From Rhizoclosmatium globosum (lineage: Eukaryota > Chytridiomycota > Chytridiomycetes > Chytridiales > Chytriomycetaceae): a DNA stretch of 64,000 nucleotides. The notes under the pieces were generated by a model that saw nothing but the letters and a program-made list of their open reading frames with translations, made no database searches and was not told the origin of the DNA. The position numbers and the translations under genes are program-made. The DNA is taken from contig MCGO01000010.1 of NCBI GenBank assembly GCA_002104985.1, positions 62,001 through 126,000 of the forward strand, given 5' to 3'. Numbering within the stretch: the stretch's first letter is position 1; the number at the start of each line of letters is the position of its first letter. This document shows positions 1 to 16,793 of the stretch, piece after piece.

Positions 1-2705
1 TTGCTGTCTCTAGTGCATCAAACTCAGAGACAGTATTTCCCTGAGTTCCACGACGGCGCAATTGCCAGGGCCTCAGAGAAAGAGAATCAAAGTCTTTTTG
101 AGCAGGAATAGCAAGCAAGCCCTCACGAACACCCTGATCCAGTAACCCAAAACTCTTTGCATATGCAAAGGGGTGACAATCTATCAAACGAACACTATTT
201 AAGTAAGAATCAGGTATTTTGTCAAATGTTAAACCCTTTGGGTCATCCCAATTGTTGACAACTGGGAAGCACAAACGATAGGTTAACAAGTGGCGATCCA
301 TGTGTGGGTTACATGTTACAAAGTACGACAATGTGGGTCCAAAGAAACGAAGAAGTGCTATCATTTGAGAGTACGCCTTTTTGCTACGTTCTTCAGAGTA
401 CCAAACTTGTTCACCGGCAGAAGCAATGAGTGGACCAATTTCTGAAAGAAGAAGTTTAGCATCTTTAGACTTTGGATTCTTAATGGCGTTTTCCAAACGA
501 GCTTCAACTCCTTCATTTAACAAACGTGTTAACTCTGCCATGGCAGCAGGTGTGTTACGCCACTTTTTACCAACACCCCGAAAAGTCTGAAGTTGAAGTT
601 GAAGGTGGCCAAAGAAGAAACCAAATTCAGGATAGTCTGCAAATACGTTTGAAGCTTGATTGAGCATGTGGCGGATCTGAGAAATAGTTGGTGGACCAGT
701 TCCAAAGGGCCAACCACAAAGAAAGAGGTGAAACATTGAACCATTCATCATTTTGTCCATCTCACCAAAATCTCCCATCAATTTTTTTTCTTGTTTTGCA
801 ATGAGGGGGGTTGTGTTTGATGGAACGGAGAGGGGATTTACAGACTGTGATGTTGGTTTAGAGGAGAAAATAGATGTAGGAGTAGCTCCAGAGGAAGTTG
901 GGACATCAATGCCAGGAAAGCTGTCATCATCGTCTTCGTTGTCTTCATCTTCTATCATCTCAATATCTTGTTCCATCCCATCAACATCTTCTTCAGTGTC
1001 CATTGATTCTTCAGTTTCATCAACATCTTCTCCAATTTTTTCTGTTTGGATTGCTTGGAGAACTTTGGAAAAGATTGATTCGTCTTGTTCTGAAGATGCA
1101 TCAAATGTTTCAACCAAGACAGGCTGCAATGGACCCAACAAGAATTCCTTGTCAGATGCTTCTGGAACTAGTATAGATGCAGATGGGGCACCTGGAACTG
1201 TAGCTGAAGCCATCCCTTCCATTGAAAGAGCATTTGGGTCAGCAACAACATTTGCTGTATCCAGCAACACATCCACCAAAGTTTCCACCCCATCAAAATG
1301 AGACTCCAAAACAAACTTTCCACGCATTTCAGGAGGGCCATAGTCAGAAAGGTGTTTTGCCCATATCACCAGTTCACTTTTGTCCAAGTGGAACACATGA
1401 CAATAGCCATTTTTGATTTGAAGTCTCCCATTAGCATCATTTAACACCATGTTCCATCGGGATAGAAAGCCAACAAACATAATAGAAAAGTCGACAGTTT
1501 CAGCTGTTACTGCTGAAGCAGGAAAAACACAAGATTCTTTTGCAGCAAGATGACGTGTTGATTGCTCAAAAGCAGATGTTGGAACTGCCACTAGATGATT
1601 TTTGAGAACAAGGCGGTCACGGGTGTCCACAAGTTTCAAAATGCCAGATTGCAAATGCACAGTACTCAAACAACGCACTCCGAGAAAGGAAAGTTTTGGA
1701 AGAGCTGTTATGTATGAAGGTTCAGAATACTGTTACAAAAACTGAAGACCTACAAGCACGATTTGCAGAGCCATAATCAATGCCTCCTGCTAGTGATAAT
1801 GTTGGCACACTTCTTACTGACGGTTGCTTTTTGTTATCTTTGTCTTTCTTTGAAGGAACTTTTTTCAGACAGGAACGGTGGCAACCAGAGCAAAGAGCAG
1901 CTTTTGTGTTGAGTGTGATGGGCTCTGAAGAACAGGTCTTCAGCAAAAAATGCTCGTGCAATAAATAGAACCGCCCGTCAAGGACAAAGTAAGTCCGCAC
2001 TGGATTATCGTCAGATAGTTTTGAAACAGACAAGTGATATAATTTTGCAAGACGGAAGCTCAAAACAACTTCATCCTTTTTCAAGATGATGCGAACACCA
2101 CAAGCAGAACATCCATAAAGAGGGAGATTTGGAGAAAAAACAGTGTCAAACTCTGTAATACAGGCTGTTTTTTCTTGATCAGAGATGGGAATAAAGGCGT
2201 CGTTTGGGTTTTTCTGATAGTCCAAGTTACTGTACCAATATGCACGTGCTGTCTGAGGATCATTGGTGTAGTCTGTTTTGCTAATTTGTTGGTGGATTTT
2301 TTAACCAAAATGTGTGACATTACCTTTAAACTTTTCAGGTAAAGCATTTAAGTCATCTTCATTCTCCTTTTCTCGTCGAGCTCGTTGTTGAATACGATCT
2401 TCTCTCTTGAGGCGCTCTTTCTCACTTTCAGACATAATTGTTCGAGCAGACACACGAGAAGAGGAGTCGTGCTCCCTGATTCCAGCCATTGTAGTGGATG
2501 AGAGAGACTCACGAGCAGACACACGAGAAGAGGAGTCGTGCTCCCTGATTCCAGCCTTTGTGGTGGATGAGAGAGAATCACGAGCAGACACACGAGAAGA
2601 GGAGTCTTTTTGTTTTGCAGTTGTTGTTTTAGAGAGTGATTGAAGACTGCGAGAACGTGCCCTCTTCATTGCGGAAGCAGATTGAAAAGGAGCAGTTGAA
2701 AGCAA
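1..2705 (-). CDS. Helitron-type transposase, N-terminal part (partial)
   Basis: The open frame runs leftward off the window edge, so only the amino-terminal part is present. I join three exons (2705..2324, 2272..1754, 1704..1) across two short GT-AG introns of 51 and 49 nt; both junctions restore frame. Seen in order: three copies of a ~23-residue Ser/Arg-rich repeat (about 2440-2640), a Cys-rich segment with CSACG and CSGCH pairs (about 1880-2110), an acidic linker (about 910-1060), then a block containing FGPTLSYFVTCNP (about 300-350). That block resembles the signature of the Helitron_like_N domain, which in Helitrons precedes the Rep (HUH) nuclease and helicase. Those two domains would lie left of position 1 and cannot be checked. 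No in-frame stop was met, so this may be a live or young copy. The family call rests on motif resemblance only. Confidence 0.72.
2440..2640 (-). repeat. 69-bp coding tandem repeat in the Helitron N-terminus
   Basis: Two full copies and one partial copy of a 69-bp unit lie head to tail inside the Helitron reading frame. The unit encodes SSSRVSAR followed by a Ser/Thr-rich stretch and AGIREHD. Copies differ by a few bases only, and the unit length is a multiple of three, so copy number can change without breaking the frame. A further degenerate SSRVSA is encoded just upstream near 2720. Confidence 0.8.
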
Positions 2706-4180: not shown

Positions 4181-4349
4181 ACAGACAGACAGACAGACAA
4201 ATTCCCAAAGGCGGCACCTAAATGAAGTCCGAGTATACATCCTCGGAAACAAATTCCCAAAGGCGGCACCTAAATGAAGTCCGAGTATACATCCTCGGAA
4301 ATTCCCAAAGGCGGCACCTAAATGAAGTCCGAGTATACATCCTCGGAAA
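4181..4349. repeat. (ACAG)n microsatellite followed by a triple ~48-bp repeat
   Basis: A short (acag)n run at about 4181-4199 is followed by three near-identical copies of a ~48-bp unit starting near 4201, 4253 and 4301. Each copy begins attcccaaaggcggcaccta and ends in catcctcgga. The first two copies are separated by about four extra bases; the last two abut. The array lies just beyond the 3' end of the gene at 4404-5384. No protein function is suggested by the reverse-strand ORF across it. Confidence 0.85.
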
Positions 4350-4403: not shown

Positions 4404-5384
4404 TTAAATGTGCACGTAACCAGTACCTCCCATTTGATTATACAGATTTCTGTACTTTTTCATCCTCTCTGCCAGAACATGCTCCAGCCTCCCTTCCTTA
4501 TTAAGCACATCACCCAACCAAACTTGAAGCAATGAAGAAAGAATCGCCAAAACCTGTCTCTGCTCGCAATTCAACCAACACAACTTATCCATCACAAACT
4601 CAATTTTCCCAAAAACAGGCCTGGGATCATGACTCCCACCCTTCCCAGGCGCCGACTCCGCCAGCGTATACTTATAAAACGGCTTGTGATCCACTTCCGC
4701 ATACGCAACAGTCACCCACTCCCCCTTCATCAACACCTGAAACTCATGTCTCCCCACATTCTCCTCCCCACTCCCAGCCCCAGTCCCACCAGAACTCGAC
4801 GACCCACCAACACCCGCGAAATTCCACCACTTGTTCGCGTCCCGCTCCTCACACATAATCCACCGCGCCGAAACACCATCCAGATCAAACCGCGCTTGCA
4901 CCTTTTTCACGTGGTAACCCTCCATCTGAAACGCACCCGGAGGAGTAAACCGCGCAGACTCATGGATATGCAGTACCACCTCTTCGTTACTGTTTTGGTA
5001 GCGCCCTTTGAACACAAATCTTTGCATGGCGGGGTGATCCTCCCTGGACCCAAGCGGGGGCAACACGTGGCGGGTTGTGAATGCGGCGGTTGTAGAAGGA
5101 GAGCGGAGGTCCCAGATGCGTGAGCCGGGGGACGTTCCTGGGTATACGTGTTTGAAATGGTAGTTAAGGTATAAATTGAACTGGGACCATGAGAGAGTGA
5201 ATGCGTCGATGCGGAATATGGGGGATGACGAGTCTGAGGGGGTTGGGAAGAGGTCTAGGACTGTGGCGTCGGTTGAGCGGCGGAAATAGAGGTGCGGTGG
5301 CCAAGATTCGAGGGTACTATCGTATGTTGGAGGAGCCTCTAAACCGTCGGCGGAATAACTTGGAAGGCCTTGTGTTGGATCCAT
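4404..5384 (-). CDS. Protein of unknown function, intact duplicate
   Basis: A 326-residue intronless gene starting at an ATG at 5384 (MDPTQGLPSYS). I do not recognise the family. Visible features: a proline-rich amino end with PPTY, which could bind WW domains or be an accessible tail; a compact middle region with many aromatic residues; a Gly/Ser-rich loop (about residue 205); and a conserved carboxyl part containing FGKIEFVMDKLCW and WLGDVLNKEGRLEHVLAER. There is no signal peptide or membrane segment. A nearly identical paralog exists as two separated halves at 5938-6570 and 14748-15108, and even the ~20 bases upstream of the two start codons match, so the duplication is recent. A membrane-associated scramblase- or tubby-like fold is conceivable but not supported by any motif I can name. 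Confidence 0.75.
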   Translation of the reverse strand: MDPTQGLPSYSADGLEAPPTYDSTLESWPPHLYFRRSTDATVLDLFPTPSDSSSPIFRIDAFTLSWSQFNLYLNYHFKHVYPGTSPGSRIWDLRSPSTTAAFTTRHVLPPLGSREDHPAMQRFVFKGRYQNSNEEVVLHIHESARFTPPGAFQMEGYHVKKVQARFDLDGVSARWIMCEERDANKWWNFAGVGGSSSSGGTGAGSGEENVGRHEFQVLMKGEWVTVAYAEVDHKPFYKYTLAESAPGKGGSHDPRPVFGKIEFVMDKLCWLNCEQRQVLAILSSLLQVWLGDVLNKEGRLEHVLAERMKKYRNLYNQMGGTGYVHI

Positions 5385-5937
5385 TTTGAGTTGCTTTTAA
5401 TTGGGGATTGATTGGTTGATTGTTGCTGGGTGGATGCATCCAGTGCTTTCGATTTGCTTGGCACAAGATCAGCCACCATTACTGATTGCAAAACTAATGA
5501 TTCGCCCCCTATATTTTGATGATGTGCAAAAGTGCAATAAAACAGATGAAAGCGAATGAAAAAAGGAAACTGTTGGATTTCCTTAAAAAATTAGGTTTGA
5601 GGCTTGCACAGTATGTGATACGCTGCAAGCCTCCTTCCACTAAAGCGTGTGACATTTTGACGCACCTGTTTCAAATTAACACATATGACGCATCGAAAGT
5701 ACGAAATCATCAGCTTCAAATGTTGTGGAACAGACAGGAAACTACTCTTTGCGAAACTGAACGTGCTATCATGGAATTTGGACTTGTGGACCAGGATTCA
5801 ACTGAAAACAAAATACCACTTCAGTCCTCTTTGCATAAACCTTTATATTGATATTTTTTATTTTTACTTCATATATTGTGTTGTTGTTTTAAGAATAGGA
5901 TGAATTCTCTCCCTCAATCTCTCGACGTTCGTCTTCA
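5385..5937. other. Intergenic spacer between the duplicated genes
   Basis: About 550 bp between the start of the intact duplicate and the 3' end of its paralog fragment. It holds a 111-codon plus-strand frame (5516-5851) with no recognisable features, which I treat as chance. In the pre-inversion order this was the spacer between two tandem genes on the minus strand. Confidence 0.5.
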
Positions 5938-6570
5938 TTAAAGTTGGAGGTAACCACTACCTAACGTTTGATTATACGGATTTCTAAACTTTTTCATCCT
6001 CTCTGCAAGAACATGCTCCAGCCTCCCTTCCTTATTAAGTACATCACCCAACCAAACTTGAAGCAACGAAGAAAGAATCACCAAAACCTGTCCCTGCTCG
6101 CAATTCAACCAACACAACTTGTCCATCACAAACTCAATTTTCCCAAATATAGGCCTGGGATCATGACTCTCACCCTTCCCAGGCGCCGACTCCGCCAAAG
6201 TATACTTAAAAAACGGCTTCCGATCCACTTCCGCATACGCAACAGTCACCCACTCCCCCTTCCTCATCAACAGCTGAAACTCATGTCTTCCCACATTCTC
6301 CTCGTCTCTCCCAGATTCAGACCCAGGCGCAGCAGAACTCGACGCCCCACCAACACCTGGGAAATTCCACCACTTCTTCACACCTTCAGACATAATTATT
6401 TTCCACATAACCCATCGCGCCGGAACACCATCCAGATCAAAGCGGGCTTGCACCTTTGTCACATGGTTTCCCTCGACATGATACATACCAGGCTCCATGA
6501 GCCGGGCAGACTCGTGGATGTGCATTAGCACCTCTTCGTCGCTGTTTGGGGTGCGTCCTTTAAACAAGAA
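5938..6570 (-). pseudogene. C-terminal half of the split duplicate (unknown function)
   Basis: The frame encodes about 210 residues matching the carboxyl two thirds of the gene at 4404-5384 (FKGR, HIHESAR, RFDLDGV, AYAEVD.KPF.KYTLAESAPGKG, FGKIEFVMDKLCW), with scattered substitutions and a slightly different Gly/Ser loop. It begins abruptly at FKGR without a start codon. The missing amino-terminal half lies 8.5 kb away on the other strand at 14748-15108. Immediately upstream (6571 onward) the sequence switches to the Gly/Ser linker of an unrelated secreted-protein gene. This is an inversion breakpoint rather than simple decay, since both halves are otherwise open. Confidence 0.85.
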
Positions 6571-8773
6571 CTGCTACTTCCGCTACTTCCACCACTACCA
6601 CTGCTACCGCCACTTCCACCATTACTGCCAGTGCCGCCATTGCCGTTGCTGCTACTTCCAGGATTCTGAGTTGTCCAGTGGATATCAAACTCGTATAAAC
6701 TGTCGTTTGAGTCAACAAAGCGAAGGTCCTTAAGACCTTGACAAGAATTGATTGAAGTGACGGGTTGCAAAGAACCCGTAGATCCAGCAAAGATAGTCAC
6801 AGTTGCAGAGCTGGACGAAGATGTTTGCGAAAAGCACGAAGACGGAATGGTCACATATTTGCACAAAGAGGGATCGGCGTTGCTACATCCAGGACTCACG
6901 GACAATGCGTTGATCCAAACTTCTATGTTTGTTGGAAGTGTGAAAGTAATGTCTTGATTGGCATTTTGAGATCCGTCTACTGATGCAACAGTGATGGATC
7001 CAAATGTTGGCGAAACTTTGAAAACATTTGAAACTCCGCAACCATAGGAAGAAACAGTTGAAGTCAATGGTGACGATAAAGATGCGTCAGCTGCAATTTC
7101 GTATGCACTCAGAGTCAGTACAACCTTCTTGGAGCAGTCAAGAGGGCTATTTGATGAGTATTTGTACAGCTTTCCAGAGACAAGATTGGGGGTCAAAACT
7201 ACGTTGGAAGCTGTGCAGTCTGTGTTGGTAACACCAGATGCTCCAACACAAACGGCAACTTCGTAGACTTTTGTAGTGTCCTTCAAGACACTTGTAAACC
7301 CAACCGTGAAAATTCCATTGTCACCAACGGATAAACTGTCAACTTCAAACGTTCCTCCAAACGGAGTAGTCGAAGGTGCTGAACCTCCCTTGATACTAGC
7401 ACCAACAAATGCATCACCTGACGCAAAACTGAGCTTGTAGTTACCGGTATTCGAAAACTGTTTGTATGAGCTCACAACTTGAATTTCACACCCTGATGGA
7501 ACTGTAATAGAGAAACCGCAGGCATTACTGAGACCAGCCGCAGGTATGCTGGTTCCGTCGGCATAAGGGCCACACCCACTGACAGCTGAGACGGTGAAAG
7601 TTTGACCATGGGCCTGGGATTGAGTCAGAATAAAGGAGTTGCCTGAAGTTTGGACTGTTGGCTGGAATGCCAAATCAGAGACAGATGAGGCGGAACCAGA
7701 ACACGTTGGATTGGCGTTACCGCCTCCATTTCCTCCACTACCGCCGCCTGTGTTACCACCTGTTGAACCACCTGTTGTGCCACCTGTTGTGCCACCAGTG
7801 TTACTACCTCCAGTGTTGCCTCCACCAGTGTTTCCACTTGATCCTCCGCCATTAGGATCAATCTGACATTAACGCTTTAAATTGCATTATCGATAAGAAA
7901 AAAGAAATTCAACTCACTAGTTTGTCTGACCAGGTAATGTACTGATTGATTGAGGGGTCACAGCCTAACTCCTCACAGACAGCAGACGAAGCATCAACGA
8001 CATTAACTTTGCAAGGTCTTTGTCCGCTGTGATCCACGTCACAGCCATTCTGAGAGTCGCATTCATCCACAACCTTTGCCGTTGTCATTTTCCCGTTCCA
8101 ATAAATATAAACCTCTTGCAGACATCAAGACCCTCCGTTGAACCAACCTGAAGAAACAAATTAATATGACATCCAACAAAAGAAAAAAAACAACTAATAA
8201 AACGCTACCAGTCGAAAGGGCAACAACTTTCTCGTCTTTCTGGGGCCAAATACCATCTTTGATACAGCTTCCGATGCCTCCTCCAGCTCCACCATCCGTG
8301 AAATCATTGTTAGTCATGACGGCAAGGGTTCCATGTGTCTTGTCCACTGGTGGCGAGCAAGTGTATCCCTTGTAACTGTGACCCGGAAAGCAACAAAGGG
8401 AGGCTCTTTGCGCCTCGTCCGCTCCATCTCCAGCGTTGCAGTCAACACCTTGGTACGTGATTGAATTGGAAGAAACGCAGGATGGAGGGAAAGTTTCTGG
8501 ATCCACATATCCGTCGCCAATAGAGCATCCGAGAGGGAAGTTGTACACCTCTTTGGCCCAGGGACTGTCCATACAAATTCCTTGGGCGTCGTCGCCATTG
8601 TACCGAGGAAAGCAACCCATTTGTCCGTCACAAGAGTCAGACCCAATGGGAGAGCACTGCCATCCACACATTGATTCGCTAGTAGTTTGGATAGGAGGCG
8701 TTGGCCAATGGGCAAGTTGGGCAGATGCAATTGTCCCAATGAGGCCAAGCTGAACGATCACTTTCAATTTCAT
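6571..8773 (-). pseudogene. 5' half of a split secreted multidomain protein: signal peptide, kiwellin-like domain, unknown domain
   Basis: Start at 8773 is chosen because MKLKVIVQLGLIGTIASAQ is a clear signal peptide; an ATG at 8815 would add 14 residues before it. Exons: 8773..8209, 8147..7918, 7862..6571. The first part is Cys-rich. It then matches the kiwellin/ripening-related double-psi barrel family: GYTCSPPV, NNDFTDGGAGGG, VALSTG, then AKVVDECDSQNGCD and ITWS at the end. A Gly/Ser/Thr linker follows, then about 280 residues of unrecognised Cys-containing beta-rich sequence, then a second Gly/Ser linker cut at 6571. An in-frame TGA lies at 8125-8127 inside the kiwellin domain, where relatives have Arg before Cys. 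Other kiwellins are secreted plant or fungal proteins. The rest of this gene is at 15109-16793. Confidence 0.8.
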
Positions 8774-9430
8774 TGCTGTTGAGCTTTGGTGAATTTTCTT
8801 TTTCATGGTTCTCATGGTACAAATTTTTGCTCAGAATTTAAACTCGCCTTGAACCAGTTTGAACCAGTTTGAACCACCTTGAACCACCTTGAACCAGTTT
8901 TACCAGCTACAACACATTTTTGATTAAAATAAAAAAATCATGAATTTCCTCTGAAGTTCCAAATGTCGTGGTTGTATGGAACCTATTGTTGGTCGCTAAA
9001 TGCTTGTGGCCATTCCGTGGTTAACCATTACGTTTAATTCGAACTTGAAATGCGTACGGTTTAGACCTGGACGAAGTAAGTCATTGGTTTCTGACTTCGG
9101 GTGGTTTGAATGCTGAATGGTTGTAAACCTTAACTTACTCTATTCAGCCTCTCACGTTCTCTCCAGTATGATTTGGAATTAATCTGCATATAAGAATGCA
9201 TGTCATCGTAGTAAAGATTTTTTAATTAAATATACCAATTTCAAGTTGAGGGATATCCAGAAAGATGAATCTATCTTCTTCCGAGTATCAGAACGTATCT
9301 ACTTGTATCGTGTCCAAGTTCTGTCGTTCGCGTTAAATTGAGGAACAGAGAAAGAGAAAGAGAAGCTCTCCCTTTTTGTTTTTTTTGATCCAGTCCCAAT
9401 CACCAACCACCAACCAACAACCAACCCGAA
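8774..9430. promoter_or_regulatory. Divergent intergenic region with a 10-bp tandem repeat
   Basis: The region between the secreted-protein gene (minus strand) and SGD1 (plus strand). At about 8851-8900 there are five head-to-tail copies of gaaccagttt or gaaccacctt, within 80 bp upstream of the secreted-protein start codon, so they lie in its likely promoter or leader. The SGD1 side is pyrimidine- and CAAC-rich just before its ATG. No other element was recognised. Confidence 0.5.
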
Positions 9431-12400
9431 ATGAAGGGCGGCGCACCAACTCGCAAAGACAAAACAACGAAGCTTCCCGCATCGATCGAAGCTTTGATTG
9501 CGGATTCGGCCTCACCTTCGACTGGCGCGGATGGATCCCGGCTCACTCGTGCGTGTCCTGTCGTCTGTTTCGATCCAGTCTAACCACTCAACCACTCATT
9601 CACTCAGACAAACAACAAAAGGAACTCGACAAACGATTCAAAGTAAAGTACTCAAAAAAGGCTCTCTTTGGACGAAAGGAGGAACGCAAAAAGAAGAGAC
9701 TCGAAAAGAAACAACATCGCGTCGAAGCTATTCAGAAACGGGCCCAAATAAACAAGGAAAAGGCTGCTTTGAAGGTATTTTTAATTGCGTTTCTATTAGA
9801 CAGTATATCTGATCCATTCCTTCAATCACAGTCTGGCGAGAAGTTTCCTTCAAAACCAACTCCATCAACTGCACCATCAACCACATCAAAACAAACAACC
9901 GCAAAAAAACAAGAATCAAAACTATCCAAACCCGCACTCTCATCCACAGTCCATGATGACATTGTCACCACACGAAAGAAACTCGAAAAGATTGCACAAA
10001 AGAACCCGGCCATGTTCAAGATGCTTCAAAGTACTAGTGTTGGTATCGAGACTGGAATGGGTGGTGCTTACGGTTACGGTGGTGGTGTCGGTGCATGGAG
10101 TGCTGATGGTTCTACTCCTTACGATCGTGACGACGAAGACATTGAATACTACTCTCGCAAACTGGGAAAAGCGAAACTCTACAAGAACAGTTTGAAGAAG
10201 GATGGACTTGATGGTATGGGATCTCTTCATAGCGTTTTGTTTTTGGGCCCATGTCACTGATTCTACAATCCCCACCAGATTTGTTTGATAGCTTGGATCA
10301 AAAGAAATCTGCTGATGCTCGTGCAGCTGCGGAAGCTGATGAAGATGGGGAGGGCGAGGAAGAAGTCATTTCAGATCTGAAGGCGTTGCAGCAACGGCCT
10401 TCCAAGATGCAGCTTGCTGCCATGAAACAAAAGGAAGAAGCTGCGAAGGCTGAAAAAGCCAAGAAAATTGAGAAGGCTGATAAAGCAGCGAAAGCTGCGA
10501 AAGAAGCGAAACCTTCCTCTGTATCCACGTCCTCAAAGAAGCAAGAGGCCCCAGTTCCATCGAAAAAGCCAAAGAAGACACCAGAACCTGAATCCGAAGA
10601 AGAAGAGGAAGAAGATGAAATGGACTTGGATGCCGATGACTTTGGATTGGGTATGGATGAGGACGACGATGAAGATGATTCTGAGGATGACTTTGATTTC
10701 GGAAGTGAAGCTGAAGTCAGCGACATTGAAATGAATGAAGGAGCTGATGAGGAAAACGGGTTCGATGATGAGGATGACGATGACGAGGATGACGAAGACG
10801 ATGATGAAGGCGATGAGGATGTGGAGGACGATGACAATGAAGACGGGGATGATGACGACGAGAACGACGAAGAAGAAGTGAAACCCTCCAAAGCCACGTC
10901 TAAAAAGTCGGCATCAGAACCAAAGAAAGAACAGGAATCAGCCGCGCCTGCTGCAAAATATATTCCACCTCGTCTTCGTGCAAAGGTCGTCAACCAATCA
11001 GAACAATATCTGCGATTGAAGCGTCAAATCCAAGGTCTACTCAACAGGCTGAGTGACTCGAACATCGAAAGTATCGTTACTGGACTGGAAGAATGTTACA
11101 GAAACAACAGTAGACACGGTAACCCATCCTTGTACTTTCCAGTGATATAGTAGCTCATTGTAGCTCATTGCCACCCTTTTAGATGTCACCGAAATCATCA
11201 CAGACGCAACGATCGGATTCATCAGTAACCACTCCAACCTCCTCGATTCCTTCGTAATGACCTACGCCGCCCTCCTCTCCTGTATCTTCAACGTAATCGG
11301 AATCGAATTCGGAGCCCACCTAACCCAAACTGCTGTCGAACTATACCTAAAATCCATGGAAGAAACCGCAACAGCCCCACCACCCCCAACCGAAGACGAC
11401 TCCGAAAAGGCAACAGACCATCCAAACAAAAAGGCAACAAACCTCGTAACCCTCCTCTCGCACCTCTACAACTTCTCTATCGTCGGTGCACCTCTCATAT
11501 ACGACGTTGTCCGCGCGTGTTTGGATCGAATGCTTGAACTTGACGTTGAAATCATTTTGAAGCTGTTACGTGTGTGTGGTGGACAAATGCGGAGCGACGA
11601 TCCAAGCGCTTTGAAGGAGATTGTGGCGCTTGTGCATGAACGGAGTGTGAAGAAGCAGGATCCTGTGTTCAACACGTGAGTAACTTTGGGTTTTTCTAGC
11701 GGGACACGGTGTGGTTCTAAAAACTGATTTGCATTTTTTTATACAGACCTCGTGTGAAATTCATGATTGAAACAATTATGGACCTGAAGAACAATAAACA
11801 TAAAAGCGGGGCCAAGAAAGGAGGCGCTGCTTCTGGTGCTTCGGGTGCGGCAACTGGGCTTCAGCAAGAAAAGTTGACCAAATTCGTTTCTGGGTTCTTG
11901 AGGAAACGTGGTGTTCCAGATCGCGAGGCCTTACGTGTGAATTTGGATGATATCAAGAACGTCCATACAAAAGGAAAGTGGTGGCTTGTTGGTGCTGCGT
12001 GGGCTGGTCATCAGGAAGATGGAAGTACTGTTAGGCCGGTGGAAAATGGTGGCGTTGGTGGGGATGAGGGTTTGGATGCTGGAGATGAGGGTGGAGCTGA
12101 TTTGATTAAGCTTGCGAAAGTGCAGAGAATGACGACGGATATCAGGAGGAGTATTTTCGTTGCTTTAATGAGCGCTGAAGTATGTTAGCTTTCTTTTCTT
12201 AAATCCTAACTAACATCATTATCAAGGACTTTGTTGACGCCTACGAAAAACTCATGAGACTCGGCCTCAAACAAAAGCAAGAACGAGAAATCGTCCGCGT
12301 TTTGTTACATTGCTGCACAAACGAGAAAACTTACAACCCATACTACTACCTCGTCGGAACTAAGTTCTGTTCCGCGTCGCATGGTTTCAAAATTACGTTT

Positions 12401-12934
12401 CAATACGCGCTTTGGGACTCAATTCGTGAATTTGAGACGGGTCACTCCGAAGACCAAGACATTGAAGGTGATGATGAGGAAAGTGGGACAAGCAGCAAAA
12501 CGTTACGTCGTGTCAGCCACTTGGCGAAGTTCTACAGTGCCCTCGTGGCCGGTGGATTCCTCGGCCTGACAATCCTCAAGTCTCTTGACTTTGCAACAAT
12601 GGGAATGTACCCTGCACTCTTCTGTCAACTCTTCTTTACACAACTCTTGATTTCGCAACCCCCACCAAACTCTGCAAACAAGAGCGCAGATGATCACGTT
12701 CGAGGTATCTTTGAGAAGTTGAAGGCTATCAAGGAGAGTGCGGATTTGTGTGAAGGAATTGAATTCTTTTTGGATCAGTACGTTGTTCCAAGGGGGAAGG
12801 AGGAGAAGCCTCGGATGGGTGTTAGTGTTGACTCTTTGGGTGTGATTTTACCGAAGGGTGGAGAGAGCTTGGCTGAATTGTTGAAGAGGCGGTGTAAAAG
12901 TGCCAGGGAAGTGCTTGTGGATGATGATTATTGA
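9431..12934 (+). CDS. SGD1: SGD1/NOM1-type nucleolar MIF4G-MA3 protein
   Basis: Seven exons (9431..9548, 9608..9774, 9832..10213, 10279..11118, 11183..11675, 11747..12179, 12227..12934) give about 1046 residues; every junction is GT-AG and keeps frame. The amino part is very basic (KALFGRKEERKKKRLEKKQ), followed by a Lys/Ala-rich stretch and a long Asp/Glu tract (about residues 340-440). YIPPRLRAK then opens the MIF4G domain (about 460-690), a common boundary in this family. An MA3 domain follows (about 795-930, RRSIFVALMSAEDFVDAYEKL). This architecture is that of Sgd1/NOM1, a nucleolar protein of small-subunit ribosome assembly. CWC22 shares the MIF4G-MA3 pair but lacks this basic-acidic head. 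The gene lies whole inside the inverted segment. Confidence 0.9.
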
Positions 12935-12955
12935 GTAAGGCAATAAATACCGGAA

Positions 12956-13380
12956 ATGAACTACCTTGGGTCTGTGTCAGCAATGGTTCTTACATCAATG
13001 ATCAATCTTCCAGGAGCTGCAAAGCGTGGTGCTGATCTTCTCGGCACCTCATCTTTCAACACAGCCCATGAACAGTTTGAAAGCGTTTTAGTACCTGAAA
13101 AACTTCAAGATACGGATGAATTTTATGGCAACGTCCTCCATAAGATTGACCATGAAGCCAGAAACTTTAAAGTCCGCATAATTATATGTATGACCAAGGT
13201 ATATACAACATCGTATTCAATCAGTTTCAACCAAGCACCACCTTTCTGCGGATCATTTTTCTTTTTTCATATATGTCTTTCTATGAATGTTATAACAAAT
13301 TCTTGTGAGTCTCTTTTTGTCCTTTGTCATTGCAGAAACAGGATTTTACTGGCTCGTTGCAAACTTTGACTGTTTCTTAA
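12956..13380 (+). CDS. Small hypothetical protein
   Basis: A frame starting at an ATG 21 bp after the SGD1 stop encodes about 80 residues (MNYLGSVSAMVLTSMINLPG, later DEFYGNVLHKIDHEARNFK). Unspliced it continues in low-complexity Phe-rich sequence. Splicing a 138-nt GT-AG intron (about 13198-13335) would instead give a 95-residue protein ending at a TAA at 13378-13380. The end overlaps the 3' end of the convergent TSC10-like gene. I do not recognise it, and the short distance to SGD1 leaves open that it is only untranslated sequence of SGD1. Confidence 0.3.
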
Positions 13381-14565
13381 AGTAAGAAACCACATCCACG
13401 TCAATAACCACTTGCCACAAAACGAAAATAAAAGTCAAAAGGCCGATGGAAAGTGTTTCGCTAATTGGATTAGATCTTGGCCCGGAACTCATATTCGCAA
13501 CAGTCAAAAGCTCTGTAACAATATCATTTGAACAATAGTATCGACCAGCAAGAATCCCTCCCAACATTGCGGATGCAGCTTTCGCAGGAAGTACAAGTGC
13601 ACTGACACCTTCAATCTTACGAGTAATCTCTGGCTTGGTCAAATTCTCAACAGCATAGCCTGGAGTATCCATATTCCCTGGAGAAAAGTAGTGGACTTGA
13701 ATGTTAAGTGGTTTGAGTTCATGGCGCAGAGCGTCTGAGAATCCACGAAGAGCGAAACGAGTTGCAGAGTAAGCTCCATATCCGATAAACGTCATAAAGG
13801 ACAGTGCCGAGCCGATGATCACAATTTTAGTTGGGAGGTGTGCAGCTTCCTCTAAAGTGAAACCAGAAACCTCCGCAGGTGGAATAGCATGAACTTTTTT
13901 AACTGACTCCTTTGCAATCGCAAAGATTGAACGAACAGTGTTGACTGCGGTAAAGTAGTTGCTGTCCATCTGAGAGCGAAGAGTATCATCGTCACCAAAC
14001 TGAATCTGATCTGAAATTAAACCTGGAGTAGCAGCTCCCGCAGCACAAATGACCCAATCGATTCGACCAGCCTAGTTTAGCAGATAATCAAACACCGATC
14101 TCCATAGTCAATCTGGCGGTTCTACTAACCACTGCTACCAAGCCTCTCAAGGCTTCTTTCGTGTTATCCCCGTTACGAAGGTCCACAGCAACTTTCCGAG
14201 CGACCGCACCAACCTGAGAAGCATTCTGCACTCTAACAAAAGCTTCGTCAAGAAACTGACTTTGACGGGCTGCGATAGTGACATTGGCTCCCGCTGCCGC
14301 AAGTTTGAGAGCTGTTTCAAGACCGAAACCTTTCGATCCTCCAGTAATGAGAATGTGACAGCCTTGGACTGTCTTTGAAAGTGTCTTGGGGTTGTATGAT
14401 TGGGTCAAGTAGAAAGATCCGATAACCTGGTTGGGGTCCACCAGTCAGTTTGTGAAGTATTAAAGCTTGAAGGAGTGAGATGAAGGCTACCTTGAGTAGC
14501 GCTGCGACAGGGACTCCGATGAATGCCACTGCAGCAAAGGTTCCAAGCGCTGAACCAATATCCAT
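13346..14565 (-). CDS. TSC10: 3-ketodihydrosphingosine reductase-like SDR, variant catalytic site
   Basis: Three exons (14565..14491, 14426..14130, 14071..13346) encode about 365 residues. An amino-terminal membrane helix (AAVAFIGVPVAALLK) precedes the Rossmann motif TGGSKGFG and is followed by NMDTPGYAVE, typical of the KDSR/Tsc10 family, which reduces 3-ketosphinganine to sphinganine at the ER. A hydrophobic carboxyl segment (IGLLTFIFVLWQVVIDV) fits a second membrane anchor. The catalytic YxxxK reads AYSATR here, so the Lys is Arg, and the usual NAG-type motif reads ICAAG. The second copy at 24715-26193 keeps YSASK and HNAG. This copy may therefore be weak, changed in substrate, or regulatory. 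It lies inside the inverted segment and is convergent with SGD1. Confidence 0.85.
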
Positions 14566-14747
14566 TTTGAACGATGAAAAATTGAATGAGAATGGAGAAA
14601 GACATACTAGTAAATATTGGTGTAATAACATTAAACTGACAATGAAGTGAGCTAAATCGGCGGCACCTATTAATGGCGGCTGATCTCCACTGCCAAGGAA
14701 ATTGAAGGCATTGCATCCACCCAATCCCCAATTAAAAGCAACTCAAA

Positions 14748-15108
14748 ATGGATCCAACACAAGGCCTTCCAAGTTATTCCGGCGACGGTTTAGAGGCTCC
14801 TCCAACATACGATAGTACCCTCAAATCTTGGCCACCTCACCTCTACTTCCGCCGCTCAACTGACGACACAGTCCTAGACCTCTTCCCAACTCCCTCAGAC
14901 TCGTCATCCCCCATATTCCGCATCGACGAATTCACCCTTTCAAGGTCCCAGTTCAATTTATATCTTAACTATCATTTCAAACACGTATACCCGGGAAATT
15001 CCCCCGGCTCACGGATCTGGGACCTCCGCTCTCCTTCTACAACTGCTGCCTTTACAACCCACCACGTATTACCCCCGCTCGGGTCCCGGGAGGATCACCC
15101 AACCATGC
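14748..15108 (+). pseudogene. N-terminal half of the split duplicate (unknown function)
   Basis: About 120 residues from MDPTQGLPSYS to GSREDHPTM, nearly identical to the amino-terminal part of the intact gene at 4404-5384, including the bases just before the ATG. At 15108/15109 homology stops and the frame passes into Gly/Ser-coding sequence of the secreted-protein gene. The remaining two thirds of this gene are at 5938-6570 on the opposite strand. A fused frame of 181 codons is open across the junction but reads the Gly/Ser linker in a wrong frame (Val/Ala-rich), so it is not a meaningful fusion protein. Confidence 0.85.
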
Positions 15109-16793
15109 TGGTGGTGGGAGTGGCAGTGGCAGTGGTGGAAGTGGAGGCACTAGCGGCGGAAGTGGTGGTTGCACTGGAGGTAGCTCAGGTGGATCCCCAA
15201 ATACTCGAACTACTGCAACCTGTGATGCAGTTATGGCCGCCATCAATGCCTTCTCAGCAACAAAAGATAGCACACAAGCTGTCAAAATTATGAACGCGGC
15301 GCGTTGGGAGTGGGACAACACTGTGCCAGCTTTATCTTGGTCCAGTGATCTTGCCGGCTCAAACTGTGCTGGATACGATATCAATTGGATGATAAACTCC
15401 AACCAGTGCAAAATGGAGCACGCTGAAAATAGTGACTCTCCTCCGCCATGTTGGGGCGAAAGTAATTCTGAACGCAGTTTTGGTGCGGTTATTGCCCAGG
15501 CGTATGACTTTCAGACGGCAATCGCCATGTGGGCCAATGAATGTTATGACTGTAAGTCGAAATTTTTGTGTATAAACCTTGTCCAACGGTTGATTTCTTT
15601 TAGATGTTGGCCAAACCGGCGGAGAAACTGGACATTTCGTCAACATGATTGTAACAACTACGAACACAGACGTTGGCTGTGTTGCTGACGAAACTTGTGC
15701 CATGGGTCTCACTGCATGCAACTTTGGCAGTGAAAAGGGAGATGATGGAAAAGGTGGACGTGCAAATGATGGATCAGGCTCTGGAAGCTGTAGCACAGGC
15801 ACTGGCACGGGGACTGGCACTGGTACGGGTGGAGGAGGAAGCGATGGTGGAAGTACTGGTAATTCCCAGCCCATAGATTTGTCACTATGGGCCATCCAAC
15901 TTCCAGACGGAACAGGCGGAACTCCTTTATCCGCCTCTGCCACACTTGGCAATGAACGATTCTACAAAGACGGAAGCAATATTGTGTTCATCACCCCAAC
16001 TGATGGCACACCAACTTCTGGAAGTGCATATCCACGAACCGAACTCCGAGAAATGGCTTCTGCAAGCGGAAAATTGAAAGCAGCCTGGACTGTTGATGAT
16101 GGACAATTGCATGAATTGTCAGTAACATTGCGCATTGACTCTTTCCCTTCTGGTGGCGAAGAATCAATTATTGTTGCCCAAATGTTTGGAAACGGCCCTG
16201 AACTCATGATCCGTGTCTATCAAACTGGCCGAGTGACAGTTGTCAACGATTATGAAAGCGCGGCATCCAAATGGAATGACTTGGATTCGCAGTATCAAGT
16301 TGGACAATTCATGGCCTTCACCATTTCACCTGATACGTCAGGAATGGTTGCTATCAAATACACAAATCAAGTGACTGGCGTCCAAAAATCTATTTCCACC
16401 ATGGTCGACCTATCCCAAAAATACTATTTCAAGACGGGCTCCTACTGCCAGTGCCAATCTACTGACTCAGGAACGTGTCAAGTTACCATGAGTGCTCTGC
16501 GCCTAAACGGTCAAAACAACTCGGCTCACAAGAAAAGAGCTACCACAAAGCCAGGAATTGAAATGGCAGGAGTTCGTGGGGTCCAATTGACGATTATTGC
16601 TCCGCAAGAATCAACCAGAAAGATTCACATCGCCGTCGTTGTTGGTATTGTTTGTGGCTGTGCTACAGTCGCATTGTTGGCTGTTGGGACTATTATCGCT
16701 CGCAGACGAAAGGCTGCTTATGCGGCCGTGCCCAACAAAAAGGACGACGAAACTCCAGAATGCGTTCAAGAACCGTTTCTCGCAGCCCATTAG
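15109..16793 (+). pseudogene. 3' half of the split secreted protein: CAP domain, PL7-type lyase domain, membrane anchor
   Basis: Read in the frame that continues the Gly/Ser linker of 6571-8773, exons 15109..15551 and 15604..16793 (52-nt intron) encode a CAP/SCP/PR-1 domain (WDNTVPALSWSSDLA, CKMEHAENSD, GHFVNMI). A Gly/Thr linker follows, then a PL7/PL20 alginate-lyase-like jelly roll with YPRTELRE and YYFKTGSYCQ. After that comes a single membrane helix (VVVGIVCGCATVALLAVGTI) with a basic stop-transfer RRRK and a short cytoplasmic tail. The QIH motif that supplies the catalytic His of PL7 enzymes reads AQMFG, so the lyase site looks incomplete. There is no start codon at the left edge; the amino-terminal half is at 6571-8773. 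Family biology: CAP proteins are secreted and can bind lipids; PL7 enzymes cut uronic-acid polysaccharides. Confidence 0.82.

Follow-up and report, generated by a model that had tools for sequence, protein, structure and literature searches.

We analysed a 64,000-nucleotide stretch of DNA (the window) from the chytrid fungus Rhizoclosmatium globosum, covering positions 62001-126000 of contig C2 in an assembly of 56.9 Mb and 420 contigs. The assembly is probably that of strain JEL800, which one report describes as a model saprotroph obtained via chitin baiting (PMC12115818). Near the left end of the window, the two ends of an 8.5-kb segment join the halves of two genes crosswise. The first, gene A, encodes a multidomain protein with a putative secretion signal, and the second, gene B2, is a tandem copy of the intact gene B1. 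The same two junctions are found on a second contig, C126 (64.8 kb). The features at the locus, in window coordinates, are as follows.

6571..15108, no strand assigned: putative inverted segment of 8538 bp, both ends of which join A and B halves crosswise.
6571..8773, minus strand: N-terminal half of gene A, with a signal-peptide-like start (by eye), a kiwellin domain (PF24300), Ser/Gly/Thr linkers and a long region without Pfam domains.
8773-8209, 8147-7918 and 7862-6571, minus strand: exons of the N-terminal half of A, splice sites placed by eye.
8125..8127, minus strand: in-frame TGA in the kiwellin domain of the N-terminal half of A, where no difference between C2 and C126 is listed.
15109..16793, plus strand: C-terminal half of gene A, with a Gly/Ser linker, a CAP-like region, a PL7 domain (PF08787) and a hydrophobic C-terminal tail (by eye).
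15109-15551 and 15604-16793, plus strand: exons of the C-terminal half of A, separated by an intron at 15552-15603, splice sites placed by eye.
4404..5384, minus strand: gene B1, the intact tandem paralog of B2, 326 residues.
5938..6570, minus strand: C-terminal half of gene B2, matching B1 nt 371-981 at 84% identity, with an open frame to its own stop.
14748..15108, plus strand: N-terminal half of gene B2, matching B1 nt 1-361 at 92% identity.

Read on the minus strand, the A linker ends at 6571 (...AGTAGCAG) and the C-terminal half of B starts at 6570. Read on the plus strand, the N-terminal half of B ends at 15108 (...CCATGC) and the A linker (TGGTGGTGGG...) starts at 15109, leading into the half of A that carries the linker, the CAP-like region and PL7. 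Inspection of the sequence confirmed both breakpoints at 6570/6571 and 15108/15109, the bases named in an earlier annotation of this DNA made from its letters alone (hereafter the sequence-only reading). Each junction consists of half of one gene and half of the other, and the halves of each gene, when compared separately without being joined, were complementary.

When B1 (981 nt) was used as a DNA query against its own genome, five matches were obtained: B1 itself, and an N-terminal and a C-terminal half on each of C2 and C126, in opposite orientations on both contigs (on C126, as on C2, the N-terminal half matches at 92%; the C126 C-terminal half matches at 87%). Some 8.2 kb separate the two B2 halves on C2, which together tile B1 with only nt 362-370 (9 nt) unmatched between them, an arrangement that chance does not give. 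The synonymous divergence (dS) between B1 and B2 was 0.26 in the N-terminal part (120 codons) and 0.29 in the C-terminal part (204 codons), and the ratio of nonsynonymous to synonymous divergence was 0.12 and 0.44, respectively, indicating that selection constrained B2 through much of its past. A protein-level search of the genome gave 12 matches, comprising the five copies on C2 and C126 and seven distant ones. The distant relatives on C9, C79 and C68 each match two segments of B (falling in 24-128 and 221-314), which keep their order and share a strand; this argues that B is normally colinear. A distant match on C23 covers the first part only, and C79 and C68, whose matches were paired in several searches, look like alleles. 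B had no Pfam match, and a protein database search with B1 returned only B1's own protein.

For gene A, the kiwellin (KWL1) domain of the N-terminal half scored 121.4 bits against a Pfam cut-off of 27 when the stop was read as X, and the PL7 alginate-lyase domain of the C-terminal half scored 113 bits against a cut-off of 29.7. The sequence-only reading names neither the kiwellin domain nor the in-frame TGA within it. The spliced N-terminal half leaves 2 nt and the C-terminal half needs 1, so that the linker would rejoin in frame as had been claimed; since one in three such joins fits by chance, this is weak evidence. Strong evidence came from a Siphonaria protein. A database search with the N-terminal half, in which scoring was limited to the 7989 candidates sharing most words (as in the search with the C-terminal half; relatives may be missed in this way, linker words being common), returned three proteins. 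One was P0002, the public R. globosum protein BCR33DRAFT_781883, which derives from the present locus; one matched weakly, along 3% of the query; and the third was P0003 (HDU68_004228 of Siphonaria sp. JEL0065), a chain of 1106 residues containing a kiwellin domain (PF24300), a CAP domain (PF00188), a PL7 domain (PF08787) and a C-terminal tail. Residues 7-666 of the N-terminal half of A align with P0003 residues 1-633 at 58% identity, and residues 226-543 of the C-terminal half align with residues 792-1106 at 47%. Both ends of A were thus most likely present in a single protein in the common ancestor of the two genera. Because both ends lie in one Siphonaria chain, the broken gene order is most likely derived rather than ancestral.

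Whole versions of both genes are therefore found elsewhere, B1 for B and P0003 for A, and the proposal of an inversion that cut two genes agrees with the tiling of B1 by the B2 halves and with the two ends of A in one protein. We consider it very probable that 6571-15108 is a simple inversion that occurred in the R. globosum lineage, by end joining of breaks in B2 and in the A linker. No copy of the locus joined in a different way was found in the genome, where pieces of the kiwellin and middle regions of A matched C2 and C126 alone, giving no second copy of A. Window 9000-15000 had 20 matches in the genome, full length only for C2 and C126. PL7 had 11 matches, two of which are gene A on C2 and C126; the other nine are on C375, C388, C361, C406 and C398, and the comparison covered the domain itself. 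A search for the linker motif found six places in the window, four of them in the two A linker halves.

Several points weigh against the inversion or against its support from A. The search with the C-terminal half returned three proteins, the Siphonaria protein P0005 and two at 31% identity, but not P0003, whose length exceeds what that search admits. The PL7 domain of A is nearer to that of P0005, which has no kiwellin domain (60% identity), than to that of P0003 (53%). The C-terminal tail matched P0003 (45%, E 4e-10) and had no significant match in P0005, from which the tail is absent, so that the tail alone ties the C-terminal half to P0003 over P0005. The PL7 domain of P0003 lacks a stretch found in the others, which may be a fault of the gene model, and the Siphonaria records carry the label UNVERIFIED_CONTAM. 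The CAP-like region of A gave no significant BLAST match to P0003, its best hit (E 0.33) lying outside the P0003 CAP domain. It had no Pfam match up to E 10 and a single borderline match in the PDB, to yeast Pry1p (E 0.0045); on this borderline match, CAP-like is the best label for the region between linker and PL7, and the CAP label of the sequence-only reading is weak. The inversion itself was read from the assembled contigs of one strain. Finally, C126 hardly differs from C2 to the right of C126:43106, a part that includes both junctions, and its testimony may therefore not be independent, in particular for the right junction.

The relation of C126 to C2 changes abruptly at the locus. C126 aligns with C2:18509-54091 in three blocks of 97.8, 95.6 and 97.0% identity (rows under 90% or 250 bp were excluded), and just left of the border the two differ by 383 substitutions in 15,549 columns (~2.5%). 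The 12.26 kb of C2 that follow are absent from C126, as is most of B1; the alignment resumes along window 5938-28029. From about 0.3 kb before the left junction, inside the B half, the two become nearly identical: C126:43106-64831 differs from window 6274-28029 by 3 substitutions in ~21.7 kb. In this part one-base insertions and deletions (indels) cluster at C126:53-55 kb and at the contig end, and a 14-bp stretch of the N-terminal half of A (window 7131-7144) is absent in C126, breaking the A frame there. We also observed several one-base indels of C126 in the PL7 part (window 15987-16644), which are possibly sequencing errors. The C-terminal half of B on C126 resembles B2 as far as alignment column 715 and B1 from column 731 to the gene end, except that columns 739-740, 911, 924, 937 and 964 are B2-like and some are specific to C126. 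This is what recombination between the direct C-terminal repeats of B1 and B2 would give, with the loss of B1 on the C126 haplotype. The heterozygosity border, the loss of B1 and an inversion breakpoint thus all fall within one gene remnant.

Loss of heterozygosity or the reuse of shared reads could explain the nearly identical tract, which lies between stretches that differ by 2-6%. The first 4 kb of C126 likewise contain few substitutions relative to C2 (8 over four 1-kb bins, with many indels), and near identity at both contig ends favours the reuse of shared reads, whereas the finding of no third copy favours loss of heterozygosity. Since the left junction is ~0.3 kb inside the nearly identical part, close to sequence specific to the second homolog, there is fair support for the presence of the inversion on both homologs; independent support is weaker for the right junction than for the left. 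The heterozygosity that the sequence-only reading had allowed for may still apply, because the near identity of C126 to C2 sets in ~0.3 kb ahead of the left junction.

A form of the inversion reading in which only one homolog carries the inversion, the right part of C126 being built from shared reads of the first homolog, is a real though minority possibility. It would account for the passage of C126 from ~2.5% divergence to near identity inside the B half, for the near identity of its first 4 kb, as if the contig ends had used shared reads, and for C106, which starts at window 28030, the base after the end of C126, and is divergent at once (11 substitutions from C2 in its first 500 bases; 94.5% identity over the 5.4 kb seen). 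Against it, the genome yielded no third, divergent copy on any contig, and an overlap of homologs through a 0.6-kb repeat would be short for a long-read assembler. Somewhat less probable is that the inversion first appeared on one homolog and later reached the second through ectopic recombination, in which the 3' part of the second homolog's B1 would have paired with the C-terminal half of B2 on the inverted homolog, and the sequence rightward from within B, together with the inversion, would have been copied over ~21.7 kb. If this were true, a single exchange would explain why B1 was lost from C126, why its B half is chimeric and why the border is sharp, and the inversion would have been made homozygous through its own broken gene. 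The near identity of the left end of C126 makes this spread less likely and an inversion on one homolog more likely. If the border is real, it offers a test case for an inversion becoming homozygous via repeat recombination.

The inversion, as we read it, would have destroyed A, and would have destroyed B2 while leaving B1 on C2. Past the left junction the A frame runs for 15 more codons, the first of which spans the junction, to a stop at 6525-6527; past the right junction the B frame reaches a stop at 15293. No in-frame ATG precedes the lyase half between the last upstream stop and the junction, and the kiwellin half, which already contains the TGA, enters B2 out of frame; the loss of A is predicted from these two properties. 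The public protein BCR33DRAFT_781883 (873 residues) nevertheless joins the N-terminal half of A to the C-terminal half of B2 across the left junction, by means of two modelled introns.

6534..6586, minus strand: 'intron' of BCR33DRAFT_781883 over the left junction, 53 nt, GT-AG, entering B's own frame, without a YTRAY motif.
8074..8123, minus strand: 'intron' of BCR33DRAFT_781883 beside the TGA, 50 nt, without a YTRAY motif.

It is improbable that the inversion made a working gene of this kind, in which a secreted kiwellin half is spliced to the C-terminal half of B2. In its favour, the 53-nt GT-AG stretch connects the two halves in the frame of B and is of ordinary length (the other introns measure 47-71 nt), and it shares its AAG end with one of those introns. 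Such a gene needs a second odd intron to pass the TGA, however: with the 8074-8123 'intron' and the shifted frame before it, the model avoids the stop but loses part of the kiwellin domain, whose score falls from 121 bits in the N-terminal half of A to 68 bits in BCR33DRAFT_781883. Moreover, neither of the two doubtful introns has a YTRAY motif, whereas seven of the eight other introns tested do (three of A and five of an SGD1-like gene, placed by eye, the first intron of the latter being excluded). BCR33DRAFT_781883 is thus probably a junction chimera, an artefact of annotation. The case illustrates how a rearrangement junction can end up in public annotation as a 'gene', with the risk of misleading studies of the proteins that chytrids secrete.

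We propose that double-strand breaks occurred in the tandem copy B2 and in the Gly/Ser linker of A, and that end joining then reconnected the ends in inverted order; the homology visible at the joins is 0-2 bp, and up to ~9 bp would have been lost at B2. The N-terminal half of B2 ends in GC, where B1, which we used as a stand-in for the ancestral B2 sequence at the break, continues with AAAG; B1 and the linker share nothing past GC. The suggestion of GCAG at both ancestral sites exceeds what the sequence displays, the visible homology being 0-2 nt. With this homology and the 9 nt of B1 unmatched, the junctions have the features of end joining (none to a few bp of homology and a small loss), and end joining with small loss seems the likely route.

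Two inverted repeats touch the locus. One (5024-5418 / 14714-15108; 395 bp, 92%) consists of B1 against the N-terminal half of B2 and touches the right junction only; the other (6573-6622 / 15105-15154; 50 nt, 78%) is the broken A linker against itself, the sole repeat found near both junctions. Recombination within the 395-bp pair might allow a renewed flip of 5419-14713. The repeats could also have misled the assembler, so that no molecule has these junctions, the 395-bp repeat ending exactly at the right junction and the linker pair lying at both. This is improbable, since no copy of the 395-bp repeat is present at the left junction, the linker pair is both short and divergent, no shared repeat includes the B2 sequences at either join, and the junctions occur on two contigs, though these are nearly identical there. 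The wrong assembly that the sequence-only reading offered as its other option is accordingly disfavoured. An inversion by homologous recombination between the inverted repeats, both pairs of which are present now, is very improbable: neither the 395-bp nor the 50-nt pair places homologous repeats at both breakpoints outside the exchanged parts, the 395-bp pair not being at both breakpoints, GC is all that B1 and the linker have in common at the break, and the linker pair is two halves of one linker, exchange between which would leave linker between the B2 halves, so that B2 would not be restored.

The simple inversion by end joining appears to be recent. The four gene halves (4712 nt) contain one internal stop, the TGA at 8125-8127, and their frames on C2 are otherwise open. 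Assuming equal substitution rates and no selection on any of the four halves, this count allows at most 0.024 substitutions per site (95% limit), a value close to the divergence of the homologs immediately to the left of the locus (~2.5%). The scarcity of disabling mutations suggests that the event is recent, as had been proposed. Since the TGA may predate the inversion and selection may persist on some half, the age is to be read as an order of magnitude only.

Two genes lie inside the inverted segment.

9431..12934, plus strand: SGD1-like gene, start approximate, with an MA3 domain (PF02847) in 12254-12931.
13346..14565, minus strand: short-chain dehydrogenase, TSC10-like, start approximate, with an adh_short domain (PF00106) within the tested 13346-13969.

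The domains agree with the names SGD1 and TSC10-like, which we retain from the sequence-only reading; MA3 was found in the last part of the first gene and adh_short in 13346-13969 of the second, the parts tested.

The 12.26 kb absent from C126 (C2:54092-66349, window start to ~4349) is an insertion with AAA at both ends. It contains an open reading frame with a PIF1-like helicase domain, which suggests a Helitron-like element. Its right end carries three near-identical tandem units (window 4197-4348) at spacings of 52 and 48 nt, and parts of the insertion recur on C79 and C68 (99% over window 1-2537) and on C418, C414 and others. Conversely, C126:20097-27195 (~7 kb) has no counterpart in C2:8001-126000 at >90% identity and is probably a second insertion difference between the homologs.

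In the one paper collection searched, no paper was found on BCR33DRAFT or naming the locus and none on fungal inversion chimeras; a search for JEL800 with haplotype matched another fungus only. Comparable events are known in humans. A polymorphic 415-kb inversion disrupts ZNF257 and yields a fusion transcript (PMC4591017). It resembles the R. globosum inversion in being natural, ascribed to non-homologous end joining, and in leaving a broken gene with a fused junction product, but it breaks one gene and its fusion was shown by RNA, whereas the R. globosum inversion breaks two genes over 8.5 kb and its fusion exists as a gene model only. A de novo inv(15) disrupts MEIS2 and NUSAP1 with fusion transcripts (PMC11621304). 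Like the present case, it has both breakpoints in genes, fusion products and a small junction loss, together with a gain in inv(15); unlike it, inv(15) is a disease case with RNA evidence for which a replicative error was proposed, whereas the R. globosum event is known from the sequence of a fungal assembly. Loss of heterozygosity by mitotic recombination, the subject of a review (PMC10276065), shares with C126 a nearly identical tract, here ~21.7 kb, between divergent stretches. C126 differs in that the border falls in a gene remnant with the loss of B1, beside an inversion junction, and in that, unlike established loss of heterozygosity, its tract may be an assembly artefact. Inversions that break genes and make fusions are already known, and the R. 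globosum event is of this well-known kind; what this analysis adds is the Siphonaria protein, the second contig and the heterozygosity border on it, the probable chimera among the public gene models, and the stop that interrupts the kiwellin half. The breakpoints are resolved to the base in a fungus of an early-diverging lineage, and because whole relatives exist for both broken genes, the mechanism and age of the inversion can be put to the test.

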